Source: Candidatus Magnetomicrobium cryptolimnococcus (GTDB lineage: Bacteria; Nitrospirota; Thermodesulfovibrionia; Thermodesulfovibrionales; Magnetobacteriaceae). Taken from it: 64,000 nucleotides of DNA. Under the pieces are notes generated by a model. The model made no database searches and had not been told where the DNA came from. It was given only the letters and a program-made list of their open reading frames with translations. Shown piece by piece: positions 2,990-31,050 of this stretch; the first letter of the stretch is position 1, and every line of letters begins with the position of its first letter. The stretch is taken from positions 1 to 64,000 of the forward strand of contig JAGYWI010000005.1 of the NCBI GenBank assembly GCA_018606805.1, read 5' to 3'. The position numbers and the translations under genes are program-made.

Positions 2990-4006
2990 ATGAGATTTTC
3001 TTCTTCAAAGACTACAAATTATGCTATGGTGTTTTTAGTTATAGCTGTGCCTATATATTTAATATTTGTTGTTCGGCCTATAAGTATTTTAGATGATATG
3101 TTTACTAAGGTTTTTGCTTTAGTGAAAAACGAAATGGAAATACCGGAAAGGGTTACACAAAAAAATAATTTTATTGGTGCAAACCCATATGTTGTTGCTG
3201 GCAGCCGTATTGGAGAACCAACTCCACAGTTAAATACTCAGCTTGATACTCCGCCAAGTGCTAATATAGAAACAAATCCTCAAACAGACACTGGCACAGT
3301 TGTCCAAGGAAGCCAGCTACAACAGTTGCCAGAATCTATTCAGCCCAAAATAGACCCCTATGGTGTTGCCAATATGGCGCGGCCAATATGGCGCGAGTTG
3401 AAACAACCAGCTCAACTGCCAGCTACAACTTCTACTACTGCAACTGCATTAAATGGCGCTATAGACAAAATCCTGCAAGAAGGGCACTGGATAGGTCTTG
3501 AGGTGATTCCGTTAACGGCAAATATTGCCTTAGCCAACAACATTCCGCTTGAGCTTAAGGGGGTGTTGGTGGATGAAGTTACGCTCCTATCTGCTCAAAG
3601 CGGTATCTTGGCAGGCGATGTTATCACCGCTATTGGTGCGGAAAATGTAACCGATCTGAAGTCTTTTCAAGAAGCTACAAAAAAAGTGGCTAATACCTCA
3701 GAGGCAAATATTAATGTATACAGGGAAGGTATGGTAAAAGACATAGCCCTTCAATCAACGGATGTGTTTGGTATGGCGCAAATGGAAGCAGCTCCGATGA
3801 TACTTGCAACTGATAGAGCACCGCATGGTTATTATGGGCCATGTGATAAGTGTCATACAATTTCTAATACTAACAAAAATGTAGCACATTTACAAAAAGA
3901 TGCTGGGGATGTTTTAACTACAACAGCACCAGTAATCAAATGGGGCGCTACAGCACCGCATATGGATAGAGGGGTATGTATAAACTGTCACAAAATAATA
4001 ATGTAA
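2990..4006 (+). CDS. mamP: MamP, PDZ and magnetochrome protein
   Basis: A 338-residue magnetosome-membrane c-type cytochrome. MamP proteins tune the Fe(II)/Fe(III) ratio during magnetite formation. An N-terminal membrane anchor (about 11-28) is followed by a long Pro/Gln/Thr-rich linker, a PDZ domain (about 165-258) and two C-terminal magnetochrome motifs, CDKCH (285-289) and CINCH (330-334). Each motif is preceded by the typical APH and Gly/Arg-Gly context. The linker makes it longer than the roughly 270 residues usual in alphaproteobacteria. The end of the second magnetochrome overlaps the start of mamM by 31 bp. Confidence 0.92.
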   Translation: MRFSSSKTTNYAMVFLVIAVPIYLIFVVRPISILDDMFTKVFALVKNEMEIPERVTQKNNFIGANPYVVAGSRIGEPTPQLNTQLDTPPSANIETNPQTDTGTVVQGSQLQQLPESIQPKIDPYGVANMARPIWRELKQPAQLPATTSTTATALNGAIDKILQEGHWIGLEVIPLTANIALANNIPLELKGVLVDEVTLLSAQSGILAGDVITAIGAENVTDLKSFQEATKKVANTSEANINVYREGMVKDIALQSTDVFGMAQMEAAPMILATDRAPHGYYGPCDKCHTISNTNKNVAHLQKDAGDVLTTTAPVIKWGATAPHMDRGVCINCHKIIM

Positions 4007-5543: not shown

Positions 5544-6154
5544 AAACGGTTATTCAAAAAAATATGTATATAGTGGCATTTTTAACAGGGCTATGTTTCC
5601 TTTCTGTTATTTTACGGCTTTCATATAATAAATATATTGACAGACTTCATTTCTTGGAAGTTGCCTACGACAACTTAGAAGTAGAGATACAAAGACGTCA
5701 TGACATTATAACAAGGAATTTAGCTGTCGTTAGAAAATACTTAAATACTGAAAAGCAGATTATTGATAAGTTGGTTACGCTAAACGGATTAATAGAAAAT
5801 AATGCAGATGAAGCCCAGCAGGAGCATATTAAACATGACATAATAACACTTTTAAATAGGGTTAATATTTTATTAGAATCCTATCCGGATATAAAAGCCT
5901 CATCCCCCTATGAGTTTTTCATACAAAGCATGAAATACACGAGTCTTCGCATAACAAACAAAAGAAACGAATATAACGCTAAGGTTCATGATTACAATAC
6001 ATTTTGTCGGATGTTTCCTTATAAAAACCTAACGGTTTTTTATGGTTGCTTTAATATACCGTTTTTTGAAGCTACATTAGATGCCAAGAAGATGGTGTCT
6101 GTCAATCATTTGTTAAATAACGGTAATGAAACAGAGGGAGAGACAATCTATTAA
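5540..6154 (+). CDS. mamQ: MamQ, LemA-family magnetosome protein (second copy type)
   Basis: A 204-residue LemA-family protein: one N-terminal membrane helix (about 9-28), then a long helical bundle with the conserved LEVAYDNLEVEIQRRHDII stretch and a later PDIKASSPYE segment typical of LemA/MamQ. MamQ is needed for magnetosome membrane formation in model strains. A paralogue lies at 11046, so this cluster has two, as reported for Nitrospirota clusters. It overlaps the EcsC-like gene by 4 bp and is followed at once by mamB. Its C-terminus ends soon after the bundle. Confidence 0.88.
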   Translation: MKTVIQKNMYIVAFLTGLCFLSVILRLSYNKYIDRLHFLEVAYDNLEVEIQRRHDIITRNLAVVRKYLNTEKQIIDKLVTLNGLIENNADEAQQEHIKHDIITLLNRVNILLESYPDIKASSPYEFFIQSMKYTSLRITNKRNEYNAKVHDYNTFCRMFPYKNLTVFYGCFNIPFFEATLDAKKMVSVNHLLNNGNETEGETIY

Positions 6155-6155
6155 T

Positions 6156-7049
6156 ATGAAAATGAAATATCCACAGTGTAAACGATGCGGTGAATGGTCT
6201 CCAAGACTTGCATTTATAGGGAATTTGAGTATATCCATTTTTAAATTTTTTGTAGGCATATCCAGTGGCAGTAAAGGACTTGTGGCTGATGCTGTACACT
6301 CCGTAGCCGATGCCACTTCATCTTTATTTATATTGATTGCTTTAAAGATTGCCAAAAAACCAAAGGATATAACCCATCCATTTGGGCACGGTAAGATTGA
6401 GTATATAAGTACGATAATGGCAAGTATCTTCATTTTTGTCTGTGCAACAACAATATTTATAGATGCCCTTTCCAGCTTTAAAGGTGAAGTACACACCATT
6501 CCTAAAAACTCAGCAATATTTGCAACAATAATAGCCCTCATATACAGTTACCTTATGTATAGTTCAAACACATGCGCAGGGACACAGTTAAATAGCCCTG
6601 CCCTTGTAGCCGATGCCTCTGAAAGCAAGGCTGATGCCCTTGCCTCCATAGCTGTGTTGGCAGGTCTCATTGGCACTAAGTTAGGGTTTTATTATGCAGA
6701 TACGGTGGCAGCATCGATGGTTTCTTTATTTGTCTTTCACATAAGTGTTGAGATGTTTTTAAAGGGCGTAAATGGCCTTATTGATGTGTCCATAGATAGT
6801 GAAACGATGGAAAAGATAGTTACACTTTGTAAACGCATTGATGGTGTAGAAGATATAAAAAGTATACGCTCAAGGAGCATGGGGCAGAGATGGCTTATAG
6901 ATATAAACATAGATGTAGATAAAAAGCAAAGCGTTTTGAATGTCCATGTTATTAGTGAGCACGTAAGGGCTTTGATTATGGAAAAGATAGAAGGTGTAGA
7001 GGATGTATTTGTACACCCTGCCCCTGTGCATAAGTGGAGGATATGGTAA
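6156..7049 (+). CDS. mamB: MamB, cation diffusion facilitator
   Basis: A 297-residue CDF transporter. MamB is essential for magnetosome vesicle formation and takes part in iron transport. Start 6156 is preferred over an in-frame start 30 bp upstream inside mamQ because AGAGGGAGAG lies a proper distance before it. It shows six membrane helices, a helix-2 site HSVAD (His48/Asp52), HPFGHGK after helix 2, a helix-5 site region ASESKAD, and a C-terminal cytosolic domain. VNGLIDVSID corresponds to VHGLMDSSVD of MamB, and an N-terminal CxxC (CKRCG) resembles CRDC of MamB. Its stop overlaps the next start (TAATG). Confidence 0.9.
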   Translation: MKMKYPQCKRCGEWSPRLAFIGNLSISIFKFFVGISSGSKGLVADAVHSVADATSSLFILIALKIAKKPKDITHPFGHGKIEYISTIMASIFIFVCATTIFIDALSSFKGEVHTIPKNSAIFATIIALIYSYLMYSSNTCAGTQLNSPALVADASESKADALASIAVLAGLIGTKLGFYYADTVAASMVSLFVFHISVEMFLKGVNGLIDVSIDSETMEKIVTLCKRIDGVEDIKSIRSRSMGQRWLIDINIDVDKKQSVLNVHVISEHVRALIMEKIEGVEDVFVHPAPVHKWRIW

Positions 7050-7432
7050 TGACGGTTGATAGCGTTTGGGCTAACACCTCTATGTTTTTATTAATAATCG
7101 CAAACGTATATTATCCAGCTAAGGAATTAGCTATAAGGTGCGGCTATAACCCAAAAGAAGTGGAAGGCTTTTTTAATCAATACATAAAAGTACATATAGT
7201 ATTGAATTTTTTTGGTTTAGTTGCAGCAGTTTTACATGGGGTTTATGCGTATGAAAACAACATATTTCTACGCGGTTCGTTTTTTGTAATGTTGCACCTT
7301 GCTATATCTGGTATGGTGTTATATATAGGTAATGTGCAAGATAATACAAGAATAAAAATTCTATATTTTCAAAAAGTGGGGTTTATTTTATGGCTATTTT
7401 TAATTGTAATAGGACATTTAAATTTTTTTTAA
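7049..7432 (+). CDS. Small four-helix membrane protein, candidate heme b protein
   Basis: A 127-residue integral membrane protein coupled to mamB by a TAATG overlap. The start at 7049 has GTGGAGG at a good distance, better than the upstream GTG at 7034. Four hydrophobic helices are predicted. Histidines lie in or next to helices: His49 and His63 are 14 residues apart in one helix, the spacing of bis-heme-binding helices in b-type cytochromes, with further His83 and His123. No CxxCH is present. The family is not recognised. It could be a man/mad-type membrane protein handling electrons for iron, but heme binding is inference. Confidence 0.7.
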   Translation: MTVDSVWANTSMFLLIIANVYYPAKELAIRCGYNPKEVEGFFNQYIKVHIVLNFFGLVAAVLHGVYAYENNIFLRGSFFVMLHLAISGMVLYIGNVQDNTRIKILYFQKVGFILWLFLIVIGHLNFF

Positions 7433-7467: not shown

Positions 7468-7556
7468 AGGATAACTAAAGATATAACAAGCTAAAAGTTT
7501 TTGGAAAGGGGGTGTGGGGGAAGAACCTTTTTGCCAAAAAAGGTTTTCCCCCACGA
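7468..7556 (+). repeat. Interspersed G-rich hairpin repeat, copy 1
   Basis: It starts with AGGATAACTAA, continues through CAAGCTAAAAGTTTTTGGAA and GGGGGTG, and ends in an inverted repeat (GTGGGGG at 7514-7520, CCCCCAC at 7548-7554, with inner arms AACCTTTTT/AAAAAAGGTT). Related copies lie at 30353-30443 (reverse), 30985-31050 and 35335-35470, with a diverged one near 57850-57975. The copy sits between the MamB and MamA parts of the cluster, where it could also act as an RNA hairpin or partial terminator. Confidence 0.8.
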
Positions 7557-7606: not shown

Positions 7607-8254
7607 ATGTTAGGGTTTAATTTTGATGTAAGTGATTTCAGATTTTTCCTTAAAGCCATATCAATAAACTTTATGAAAGTGCTGGAATCGTTAGTAAATG
7701 CGTATAACAGTATGTTTCAGGTAAAAGCTGAAGATATAGTTAAGGTGTATACGGAAATAGGTGATGAGTTAAGTAAAAAGACAGATAACGAAGGTGCTCT
7801 AAAAGCCTACAAAAAGGTACTTGAGGTAGATTCAGGTAATATTCATGCCCTTTCAAGACTTGGACGGTTGTACCTTAATTATGGTCTTGCAAATGACGCA
7901 ATTGAGGTATTAAGAAAGGCAACCGTCTTAGATAAGACAAGGGCAAAGCATTTCTACTTACTTGGCTCGGCATATTTTATGGTAGATAATAATCAAGATG
8001 CCATAAATGCCTTTACTGAGGCTATAAGGCTTAATCCAAAGTACAGTTATGCTTATTACAAACTTGGGCTTGTGTATGACAGTATATCGGATTTTGACAA
8101 GGCTATAGAATCATATGAAAATGCAATATCCATAAACCCTAACTTTGTGAAGGTGTACCAGAGCTTAGGACTTGCTTACGAGGGCAAAGGGATGAGAGAG
8201 AAGGCTGTCCAATATTTTAAAAAAGCATTAGAAAAAGAGGAAAAAAACGCATAA
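7607..8254 (+). CDS. mamA: MamA, TPR protein of the magnetosome coat
   Basis: A 215-residue protein made of about five tetratricopeptide repeats from residue 45 to the C-terminus; units such as YYKLGLVYDSISDFDKAIES are clear. MamA self-assembles into a coat on the cytoplasmic face of magnetosomes and serves as a docking scaffold. The first 40 residues are not TPR and are rather hydrophobic. AGGAGG precedes the start by 12 bp. TPR proteins are common, so identification rests on size and on position directly before mamI and mamE. Confidence 0.87.
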   Translation: MLGFNFDVSDFRFFLKAISINFMKVLESLVNAYNSMFQVKAEDIVKVYTEIGDELSKKTDNEGALKAYKKVLEVDSGNIHALSRLGRLYLNYGLANDAIEVLRKATVLDKTRAKHFYLLGSAYFMVDNNQDAINAFTEAIRLNPKYSYAYYKLGLVYDSISDFDKAIESYENAISINPNFVKVYQSLGLAYEGKGMREKAVQYFKKALEKEEKNA

Positions 8255-8569: not shown

Positions 8570-11044
8570 ATGCAAGATATAGGAAGAGACAATTATGATT
8601 TTCAAAGACCGACTGAGAGCTGTCCAAAAAACTACAAGCCTTGGGTTTGGACTTTATTAGTAATGATGGTGGTAACCGTGCTGTGGACACTTTATGAAAA
8701 CTACCAAGGTGGCGGGTTTATGAGACAGTTAGTTGAAAAAGACGATGGACTGAAGATGCGGGATTTTTCTAATATGTACAGCACGGCAGCGATAGAGTCA
8801 GGGGCTGTTAAAAATGTTCAAAACAGTTACCACAATATAATAGAAAAGGTAAGACCTGCGGTCATTAGCATTGATGCGGTTTTGGGAAAGCCACTAACAA
8901 ACGCTAACGACATTCCGCTTGCACCGGGCGTTGTGGAGCCTAACTTTACAAGGGTTGGCTCTGGCGTTATAATAGAGCCCAGAGGGTACGTGCTAAGCAG
9001 CCTGCACGTCATTGCAGGGGCTGACTCCCTTAAAGCCACTGTGCATACTCAAAGCGGTGCTCAGGTTTACCCTATAAATGTTGTCAATGTGGATAAAAAC
9101 ACAGACCTTGTCCTTTTGAGAATCCAAGGCGATGGACCATTTCCTTATGCAATATTAGGGGATTCTGACAATGCTCACACAGGGGATATTGTACTTGCCA
9201 TGGGTAGTCCCTTTGGCTTTGACCAAACGGCAACAGTCGGTATTATAAGCAGCACTAAGCGCACTGTAACTATAAATGGTAAACTTTATGAAAATCTGCT
9301 GCAAACCGATACCCCTATAAATAAGGGTAATAGTGGAGGCCCACTTATTGATGCTGAAGGTAACGTTATAGGTATAAATAATGCCATATACTCACCAAAT
9401 GGAGTATTTACTGGTATAGGGTTTGCTTTACCAATAAATCAGGCAGATTCCCTCGTTGCTGGTGTTATAGACTTTGGCAATTCGCCCGTTCAAGCCGTTG
9501 CAGGGCAAATAGTTGCATGGGGCAATAGAGGACGTCAAGTTGGCAACAGCTATCGGTTTGGAAATGGTCAAGTGATAACCCCTCCACACACGCCGCGTGG
9601 TAGATGTATTACCTGTCATCCACAGCTTTGCCAAAACCTAAACCCTATAGCTCCTTTTCACCCAATCGTACCTGGTCAGCCTAATAACAATAATATACAA
9701 AACGTTGGATTTGTAAAGCAGGAGCTGCCATTTCTTGGCGTATCTGTTATAGATGTGGACTCAGTGGTTGCTGAGCACTTCGGCCTACTCTACCCTACCG
9801 GTGTCCTTGTTGAACGTGTGTATGACAAAACACCGGCTAACGATGCTGGCGTTTTACGTTCTGACATCATAATGCGTGTAGATGGAAGAAGGGTAAGAAG
9901 CGCTGTAGAGTTTATGCAGTTAATTCAGTCTGAAAAGATAGGAAAAACCTTTGATTTACTTATCTATAGAAGTGGTTCACGAAAGGCAATAACTATAAAC
10001 ACCGTGCAATTTCCGACATTTGAAAATCAACCACTAAAGACTAATAAGCAGGCATTTGCTTGGCTTGGCTCAGAGATTACGGATTTAAACGCTACTTTAA
10101 AGCCCTACATAAAAAATGGGGTTTATGTAAAAGATGCCGATGGTATCCTTAATCGTGCTGGGGTTATGAGGGGAGATGTCATTGTAGGAATAAATGGCAG
10201 TATCGTACAAGACATAACCTCTTTTATAACAATAGCAAACGCTACAAGCGTACTTGATGGTATAAAGCTTGATATATTAAGAAGCGGCCAAAACATATCA
10301 ATAAATGTAACACCAAACGTAGGTGGTCAGGTTAAACCCGCAGCTTACGTACCGGATGTGCAGTCTATAGCTGCTTGGCCTGTGGCTGCTCAACTTACAA
10401 TACCAGCACCTCCAGTAGCTAATAATATGAAAGAATTTGAATGGCAAGGCTCAGAAATCAGCCCAATAAATAGCACCATTGCCCCATACATACCATACGG
10501 TGTTATGGTTGCCGATGTTGGCGGAATACTTAGGCGCAATGGGGTTATGTCTGGGGATATTATTGTCGGCATCAATGGAGCAAAGGTTACGGATATTGGT
10601 TCTTTTATAGCTATGACAAATAATCTTGACTTAAGAGATGGGGCACTTTTAGATATTTTACGTCAAGGGCAGCAGGTTTACGTAACAGTTAAGCGGGGAA
10701 GTGCCTTTACATTAATAGCAGGAGGAAAGGCTAACACGGCAGCAACAGCACCTGCTGCTGCTAAGCCAAAAAACACAGAAGTTGAGTGGCTTGGTAGTGA
10801 GTTTGGTCCAATCAATCAAGCCCTCTCAGCATATATTAAGTCTGGGGTGTACGTGCTTGACCCAGGCGGTGTTTTAAAGCGTTCTGGGGTTCAAAAAGGT
10901 GATGTCCTTGTTGCCATAAATGATTACAACATAAGCGATATAGATTTTTTTGCTAACATGATTAAAAATATAGACGTAAAAACAACAAAACCTACACTTG
11001 AAATAATACGCTCTGGTCAAACGGTACAAGTTGAGGTAAAGTAG
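8570..11044 (+). CDS. mamE: MamE, HtrA-type protease with magnetochrome and four PDZ domains
   Basis: An 824-residue membrane-anchored trypsin-like protease. MamE processes other magnetosome proteins and controls the switch to crystal growth. Order: cytoplasmic tail, membrane helix (about 24-41), HtrA protease domain (about 85-300) with an apparently intact triad His146, Asp179, Ser255 (GNSGGP), one magnetochrome motif CITCH (346-350) in RGRCITCH, then a PDZ domain (about 385-480). Three further PDZ-like units start near 495, 645 and 765, each opened by a W-x-G-S-E signature and containing GDVIVGIN-type motifs. Alphaproteobacterial MamE has two magnetochromes and two PDZ domains, so this layout is different. 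Confidence 0.92.
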   Translation: MQDIGRDNYDFQRPTESCPKNYKPWVWTLLVMMVVTVLWTLYENYQGGGFMRQLVEKDDGLKMRDFSNMYSTAAIESGAVKNVQNSYHNIIEKVRPAVISIDAVLGKPLTNANDIPLAPGVVEPNFTRVGSGVIIEPRGYVLSSLHVIAGADSLKATVHTQSGAQVYPINVVNVDKNTDLVLLRIQGDGPFPYAILGDSDNAHTGDIVLAMGSPFGFDQTATVGIISSTKRTVTINGKLYENLLQTDTPINKGNSGGPLIDAEGNVIGINNAIYSPNGVFTGIGFALPINQADSLVAGVIDFGNSPVQAVAGQIVAWGNRGRQVGNSYRFGNGQVITPPHTPRGRCITCHPQLCQNLNPIAPFHPIVPGQPNNNNIQNVGFVKQELPFLGVSVIDVDSVVAEHFGLLYPTGVLVERVYDKTPANDAGVLRSDIIMRVDGRRVRSAVEFMQLIQSEKIGKTFDLLIYRSGSRKAITINTVQFPTFENQPLKTNKQAFAWLGSEITDLNATLKPYIKNGVYVKDADGILNRAGVMRGDVIVGINGSIVQDITSFITIANATSVLDGIKLDILRSGQNISINVTPNVGGQVKPAAYVPDVQSIAAWPVAAQLTIPAPPVANNMKEFEWQGSEISPINSTIAPYIPYGVMVADVGGILRRNGVMSGDIIVGINGAKVTDIGSFIAMTNNLDLRDGALLDILRQGQQVYVTVKRGSAFTLIAGGKANTAATAPAAAKPKNTEVEWLGSEFGPINQALSAYIKSGVYVLDPGGVLKRSGVQKGDVLVAINDYNISDIDFFANMIKNIDVKTTKPTLEIIRSGQTVQVEVK

Positions 11045-30352: not shown

Positions 30353-30443
30353 GCGGGGGAAAACCCTTTTGAAAAAGGGTTCTTCCCCCGCACCCCCTTT
30401 CCTAAAACTTCTAGCCTGCCACTTTTTTAGTTATTCCTCTTAT
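30353..30443 (-). repeat. Interspersed G-rich hairpin repeat, copy 2 (reverse)
   Basis: The hairpin GCGGGGGAA...TTCCCCCGC (30353-30391) is followed by the family's left part in reverse orientation: CACCCCCTTTCCTAAAACTT, then AGTTATTCCTC. Read on the minus strand this gives GAGGAATAACTA, AAGTTTTAGGAAAGGGGGTGCGGGGG, matching the copy at 35335. Confidence 0.8.
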
Positions 30444-30984: not shown

Positions 30985-31050
30985 AGGATAAAAGTTTTAG
31001 GAAAGGGGGTGCGGGGGGATAACCCTTTTGCCTAAAAGGGTTTCCCCCTG
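30985..31050 (+). repeat. Interspersed G-rich hairpin repeat, copy 3
   Basis: AAAGTTTTAGGAAAGGGGGTGCGGGGGG followed by the inverted repeat GGGGGATAACCCTTTT...AAAAGGGTTTCCCCC (31014-31048). Same family as copies at 7468, 30353 and 35335. Confidence 0.78.

Follow-up and report, generated by a model that had tools for sequence, protein, structure and literature searches.

Mad2 of a Nitrospirota magnetosome gene cluster as a candidate b-type heme protein of the magnetosome membrane

Magnetochromes need electrons entering or leaving the magnetosome lumen, and those such as MamP influence the balance between Fe(II) and Fe(III). To our knowledge, no established electron route to the magnetosome lumen exists outside the alphaproteobacteria. 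The literature that was searched holds no proposal for such a route, no paper proposing heme for Mad2 and no paper linking mad genes with cytochrome b. Among characterized proteins, Mad2 of Desulfovibrio magneticus RS-1 (DMR_41120) had no evident homologue (Rahn-Lee 2015, PMC4287615). RS-1 mad2 mutants have no magnetic response and form rare jagged or round particles; three alleles are described, a stop at position 37, G162S and H101Y, and the strains carrying either missense change are non-magnetic (PMC4287615). Redox roles have likewise been proposed from sequence for two other RS-1 proteins, Mad1, which carries CxxCH c-type heme motifs, and Mad6, which is NapH-like and carries a NapH domain (PMC4287615); Mad2 has neither. 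Mad2 is needed for the RS-1 magnetic response while its function is so far unassigned, and two missense alleles that by numbering fall on its histidine core make a heme role directly testable. RS-1 can be edited by a published genome-editing method (PMC6210102).

In Nitrospirota, the published gene order is mamP-mamM-mad31-mamQ-mamB-mad2-mamA-mamI-mamE. Ca. Magnetobacterium casense and Ca. Magnetominusculus xianensis, among others, largely share this order, and mad2 occupies the same position in their respective strains MYR-1 and HCH-1. The window analysed here, the first 64,000 nucleotides of contig JAGYWI010000005.1 of Candidatus Magnetomicrobium cryptolimnococcus, encodes MamP (a magnetochrome), MamM and MamB (cation-efflux proteins), MamQ (LemA-type), MamA (TPR) and MamE (a PDZ protease) at matching places, and a small open reading frame lies between mamB and mamA, as mad2 does in the published Nitrospirota clusters. 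Given this synteny and the homology to its relatives at the mad2 position of known magnetotactic bacteria (E 1e-16 to 1e-22), the reading frame is almost certainly mad2. An assignment to man6 was dropped because the published order puts mad2 here. MYR-1, HCH-1 and LBB02 are the named strains among the Mad2 profile matches. The resemblance to mad2 of RS-1 and of magnetotactic Nitrospirota lies in an adjoining mamB, a nearby mamQ and homology to the Nitrospirota and Desulfobacterota proteins encoded there. The earlier note had presented the protein as new; it already bears a name, and the phenotype of its RS-1 mutants has been published. That the frame is a real gene for 127 residues was borne out, homologues being present in 18 of the 19 genomes from its family; 12 of 296 sampled Nitrospirota also have one. 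"His-rich" overstates its composition, since four of the 127 residues are histidine and the Mad2 family averages about 4%.

The mamB stop codon (TAA, 7047-7049) and the mad2 start codon (ATG, 7049-7051) overlap by one base, which suggests that translation of mad2 is likely coupled to that of mamB. A Shine-Dalgarno-like GGAGG at 7036-7040, within the last mamB codons, offers mad2 a suitable ribosome-binding stretch. The earlier note had described the two as fused in translation; the mamB TAA and the separate, overlapping ATG of mad2 rule out a translational fusion. The window has an in-frame GTG at 7034, and in several relatives, too, a possible start in frame lies within mamB, so the exact start of mad2 is uncertain. 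The features are listed in Table 1.

Table 1. Coordinates of mad2, its neighbours and the codons of interest in the window
Feature	Position	Strand	Basis or remark
mamP, PDZ and magnetochrome (MCR) domain; candidate electron partner	2990..4006	+	PF18509 E 4.9e-15, two stretches
mamB, cation-efflux (CDF) transporter	6126..7049	+	Pfam Cation_efflux E 5.8e-42
Alternative in-frame start GTG at 7034 (+5 aa)	7034..7048	+	upstream of the mad2 ATG
mad2	7049..7432	+	127 aa, stop included in coordinates; four predicted transmembrane helices
H49 codon, helix 2; predicted cytoplasm-side heme ligand	7193..7195	+	His in 25/26; conserved face of helix 2
H63 codon, helix 2; predicted lumen-side heme ligand	7235..7237	+	His in 26/26; RS-1 H101 by numbering
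H83 codon, helix 3; unlikely ligand	7295..7297	+	only the window sequence has it in 26; ~145 degrees from conserved face
Y106 codon; predicted ligand lost in the window copy	7364..7366	+	His in 23/26, motif LHTQQ
G122 and H123 codons, end of helix 4; H123 predicted second lumen-side ligand	7412..7417	+	both invariant; G122 = RS-1 G162 by numbering
mamA, TPR protein, downstream neighbour of mad2	7607..8254	+	domain search; order as in L023, L031, L041 and L043
mamE, trypsin-like protease with PDZ domains	8570..11044	+	domain search; one CxxCH in translation

An AlphaFold2 model of the window protein, built with 24 aligned sequences, has helices at residues 3-30, 35-66, 72-93 and 98-123 (mean pLDDT 91.9). 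The Mad2 of Ca. M. xianensis is modelled with the same helices, the first one broken in two (mean 86.6). The four helices claimed earlier are thus found in the model, as is the spacing of 14 residues between H49 and H63 within helix 2, and all four histidines of the window protein lie inside predicted helices, none of them outside as would have told against the claim. In helix 2, the conservation moment places H49, N53 and H63 on one face (permutation p < 0.001); that of helix 4 does not reach significance (p about 0.06). Segments 25-46 and 93-105 are rich in lysine and arginine, and segment 65-72 is acidic. By the positive-inside rule the former would be cytoplasmic and the latter lumenal, so H63 and H123 would be on the lumen side.

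Conservation was read from 51 distinct Mad2 core sequences pooled from family searches, and column by column from an alignment of 26. Four histidines, at window positions 49, 63, 106 and 123, are present together in 44 of the 51, one pair in each of two membrane helices; three of them are present in the window protein. In the alignment, N53, H63, G88, G122 and H123 are invariant even though identity to the window protein falls as low as 14%. The earlier note had named H49, H63, H83 and H123: the first, second and fourth are conserved across phyla, and H83 occurs, within that alignment, in the window sequence only. The two-plus-two pattern of the relatives is completed by the histidine at position 106, which that list did not include and which is tyrosine in the window. 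H83 is unlikely to stand in for this missing fourth histidine, being absent from the other aligned sequences and pointing about 145 degrees away from the face of helix 3 that is conserved. Compared with Mad2 of RS-1 and Nitrospirota, the window copy also has valine in place of the second histidine of an HGH motif.

The remaining exceptions to the four-histidine pattern are few. L043 has threonine at 106, L047 has glutamate at 49 and arginine at 106 but keeps H63 and H123, and a Geobacteraceae paralogue pair (L046/L080) retains histidine at 49 only, H63 and H123 having gone together; in the last two sequences the C-terminal part falls outside the match. The genomes of L043, L047 and L046 hold additional mad2 copies with all four histidines.

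The RS-1 missense alleles seem to fall on the same core. Three Desulfobacterota homologues of 166 residues (L067, L068, L070) have histidine at exactly 101 and glycine at exactly 162, in the alignment columns of H63 and G122 of the window protein; H101Y and G162S would accordingly map to these two residues by the numbering of the homologues rather than from the RS-1 sequence. In that numbering the four conserved histidines are residues 87, 101, 146 and 163. The RS-1 locus tags imply the order mamQ-mad2-mamB, which these three loci share. Desulfobacterota relatives carry about 40 extra N-terminal residues compared with the window protein.

Four helices with histidine pairs on helices 2 and 4 constitute the layout of cytochrome b. 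The Mad2 family resembles the four-helix core of cytochrome b/b6 (PF00033) in its four helices, in histidines 14 apart on helix 2 and in two histidines on helix 4. It differs in lacking profile similarity, in a helix 4 spacing of 17 instead of 13-14, and in that no further helices or quinone-site motifs were identified. PF00033 is absent among the window-protein matches up to E 10 and reaches 0.2% in the hhalign comparison with the family. More broadly, Pfam and NCBIfam give Mad2 no significant or consistent heme-family match, only chance-level ones: one of the 26 members matches prokaryotic cytochrome b561 (PF01292) at E 0.13, which is not significant, and one matches DUF4405 (PF14358) at E 0.014. 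In hhalign, neither cytochrome b nor seven control families matched Mad2. The best family there was PF01292, which ranked ahead of the seven controls (P 0.001-0.003, probability about 10%), and Ferric reductase-like PF01794 gave P 0.034 with a single member compared. In a global alignment the last-helix histidine pair of PF01292 is in register with Mad2 106 and 123, which is suggestive only; the other conserved histidines of b561 lie one each in helices 1 and 2, unlike those of Mad2, and the match is not significant.

In structure comparison, VIA-align returns a cytochrome b6 chain (1vf5_A, Z 10.4), the cytochrome b of hydrogenase-1 (9.3-10.5) and cytochrome b561 (9.6-9.9), scores within a range that may mean no more than a common arrangement. 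Designed helical bundles head the list with Z up to 13.5, many non-heme bundles score like the cytochromes, and voltage-sensor domains and cytochrome c oxidase subunit III match the fold too. Foldseek returned nothing below E 0.5, and a sequence search of solved structures with Mad2 found none. The modelled fold is compatible with heme and proof of nothing, and the fold search alone decides nothing. The comparison to cytochrome b made earlier thus stands as far as the conserved H49, H63 and H123, the two-plus-two histidines of the relatives and the RS-1 alleles placed by numbering are concerned; no profile or fold match adds significant backing.

By alignment and model, Mad2 is a four-helix membrane protein with a conserved core around the histidines of helices 2 and 4. 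A somewhat better than even case can be made that it binds b-type heme and conducts electrons through the magnetosome membrane, the window copy having kept the lumen-side histidine pair. In the mechanism that we infer, H63 and H123 would hold a heme b on the lumen side, H49 and a histidine at 106 would hold a second heme b toward the cytoplasm, and the two hemes together could pass electrons across the membrane. The joint losses in L047 and in L046/L080 speak for this pairing. The likeliest lumenal partners would be magnetochrome proteins such as MamP, and the other partner would likely be a quinol or another carrier on the cytoplasmic side. The link from MamP and MamE to the quinone pool put forward in the earlier note would be of this kind. 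With tyrosine at 106, the second heme of the window copy is probably lost or differently ligated. The window protein is a natural variant without one of the predicted ligands.

It is possible, if doubtful, that the window Mad2 is partly degenerate within this heme reading, with no trans-membrane electron transfer and either a single lumen-side heme or a fading function. Position 106 is histidine in nearly all aligned relatives, and the search for a second copy in the window genome (98.5% complete) found this one only, whereas the genomes of L043 and L047, whose copies share this loss, also encode intact ones. Speaking against decay, the window copy retains H49, H63, G88, G122 and H123, its reading frame is intact and its place in the cluster is kept.

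The same conserved histidines and RS-1 alleles would also fit a heme-free protein whose histidines themselves coordinate iron or some other metal and which serves beside MamB as a subunit for metal handling or as a permease subunit. The overlap of mad2 with the gene of a cation-efflux transporter favours such a role, as do the acidic residues on the lumen side and the extra histidine that many relatives have two residues past H63. Histidines spaced by 14 and 17 in two helices, together with invariant glycines in helices 3 and 4, nevertheless appear more like bis-histidine heme ligation than like a clustered metal site, and the four histidines are kept in relatives whose genomes have no convincing MamI; direct metal binding is judged unlikely. 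Somewhat less probable is a structural or scaffold role, in which Mad2 shapes crystals or recruits partners and its histidines serve packing only. The rare jagged or rounded particles still formed by RS-1 mad2 mutants agree with this (PMC4287615), and a published comparison has proposed a role in crystal morphology. Yet histidines and glycines invariant at low identity, combined with the non-magnetic H101Y and G162S strains, suggest a cofactor site, and degenerate copies tend to lose their histidines pairwise.

Distant relatives (L071-L077) have all four histidines and, in the six that were aligned, are 14-20% identical to the window protein. At most of the distant loci examined, the mad2-like gene lies beside a small open reading frame, one of which matches the C-terminal domain of NfeD. 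MamI-like scores in these genomes are weak and equal to the background level of control genomes, so the hosts are probably not magnetotactic. At L081-L086, which cover mad2-like genes and their neighbours in genomes with no convincing MamI, the distant Mad2-like proteins have all four histidines; most lie beside a small NfeD-like reading frame and two near a DUF302-like protein. A search of viral contigs for Mad2 found none.

In two Geobacteraceae genomes (L046:5998-7733 and L060:3873-5775), a mad2 paralogue overlaps a gene for a Rieske [2Fe-2S] protein (PF00355, E 1.3e-13), which is followed by mamP. This arrangement is the strongest contextual hint of a redox role, although the paralogue adjoining the Rieske gene itself lacks three of the four histidines. 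The only Rieske gene found in the window genome is on another contig, adjoining a cytochrome b gene. Two Geobacteraceae genomes, G307 and G308 (L050, L051, L054, L055, L079 and L080), each hold four mad2-like genes; in G307, one lies between mamB and mamA and the others elsewhere.

Returning to the heme reading, a bolder form of it can be put forward tentatively: the small Mad2 proteins may form a family of diheme b cytochromes that has so far gone unrecognised, linking a carrier such as quinol on the cytoplasmic side to lumenal magnetochromes and so setting the iron redox state of the magnetosome. If true, the Geobacteraceae paralogue, the Rieske protein and MamP would form a reduced bc1-like chain for mineral formation, and the relatives that have an NfeD-like neighbour and whose genomes show no convincing MamI would extend the family beyond magnetosomes.

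In the window cluster, MamP has two magnetochrome stretches, and no magnetochrome domain was matched in MamE at E 0.01. The window MamE is 824 aa long compared with 575-616 aa in several Nitrospirota relatives, with roughly four PDZ stretches and with C-terminal segments that repeat. Between mad2 and mamA, a palindromic G-rich repeat spans 7508-7552. Its left arm recurs in the window at 30378-30397 and 31005-31024, where none would be expected by chance, so the repeat resembles an interspersed element, one that could function as a hairpin.
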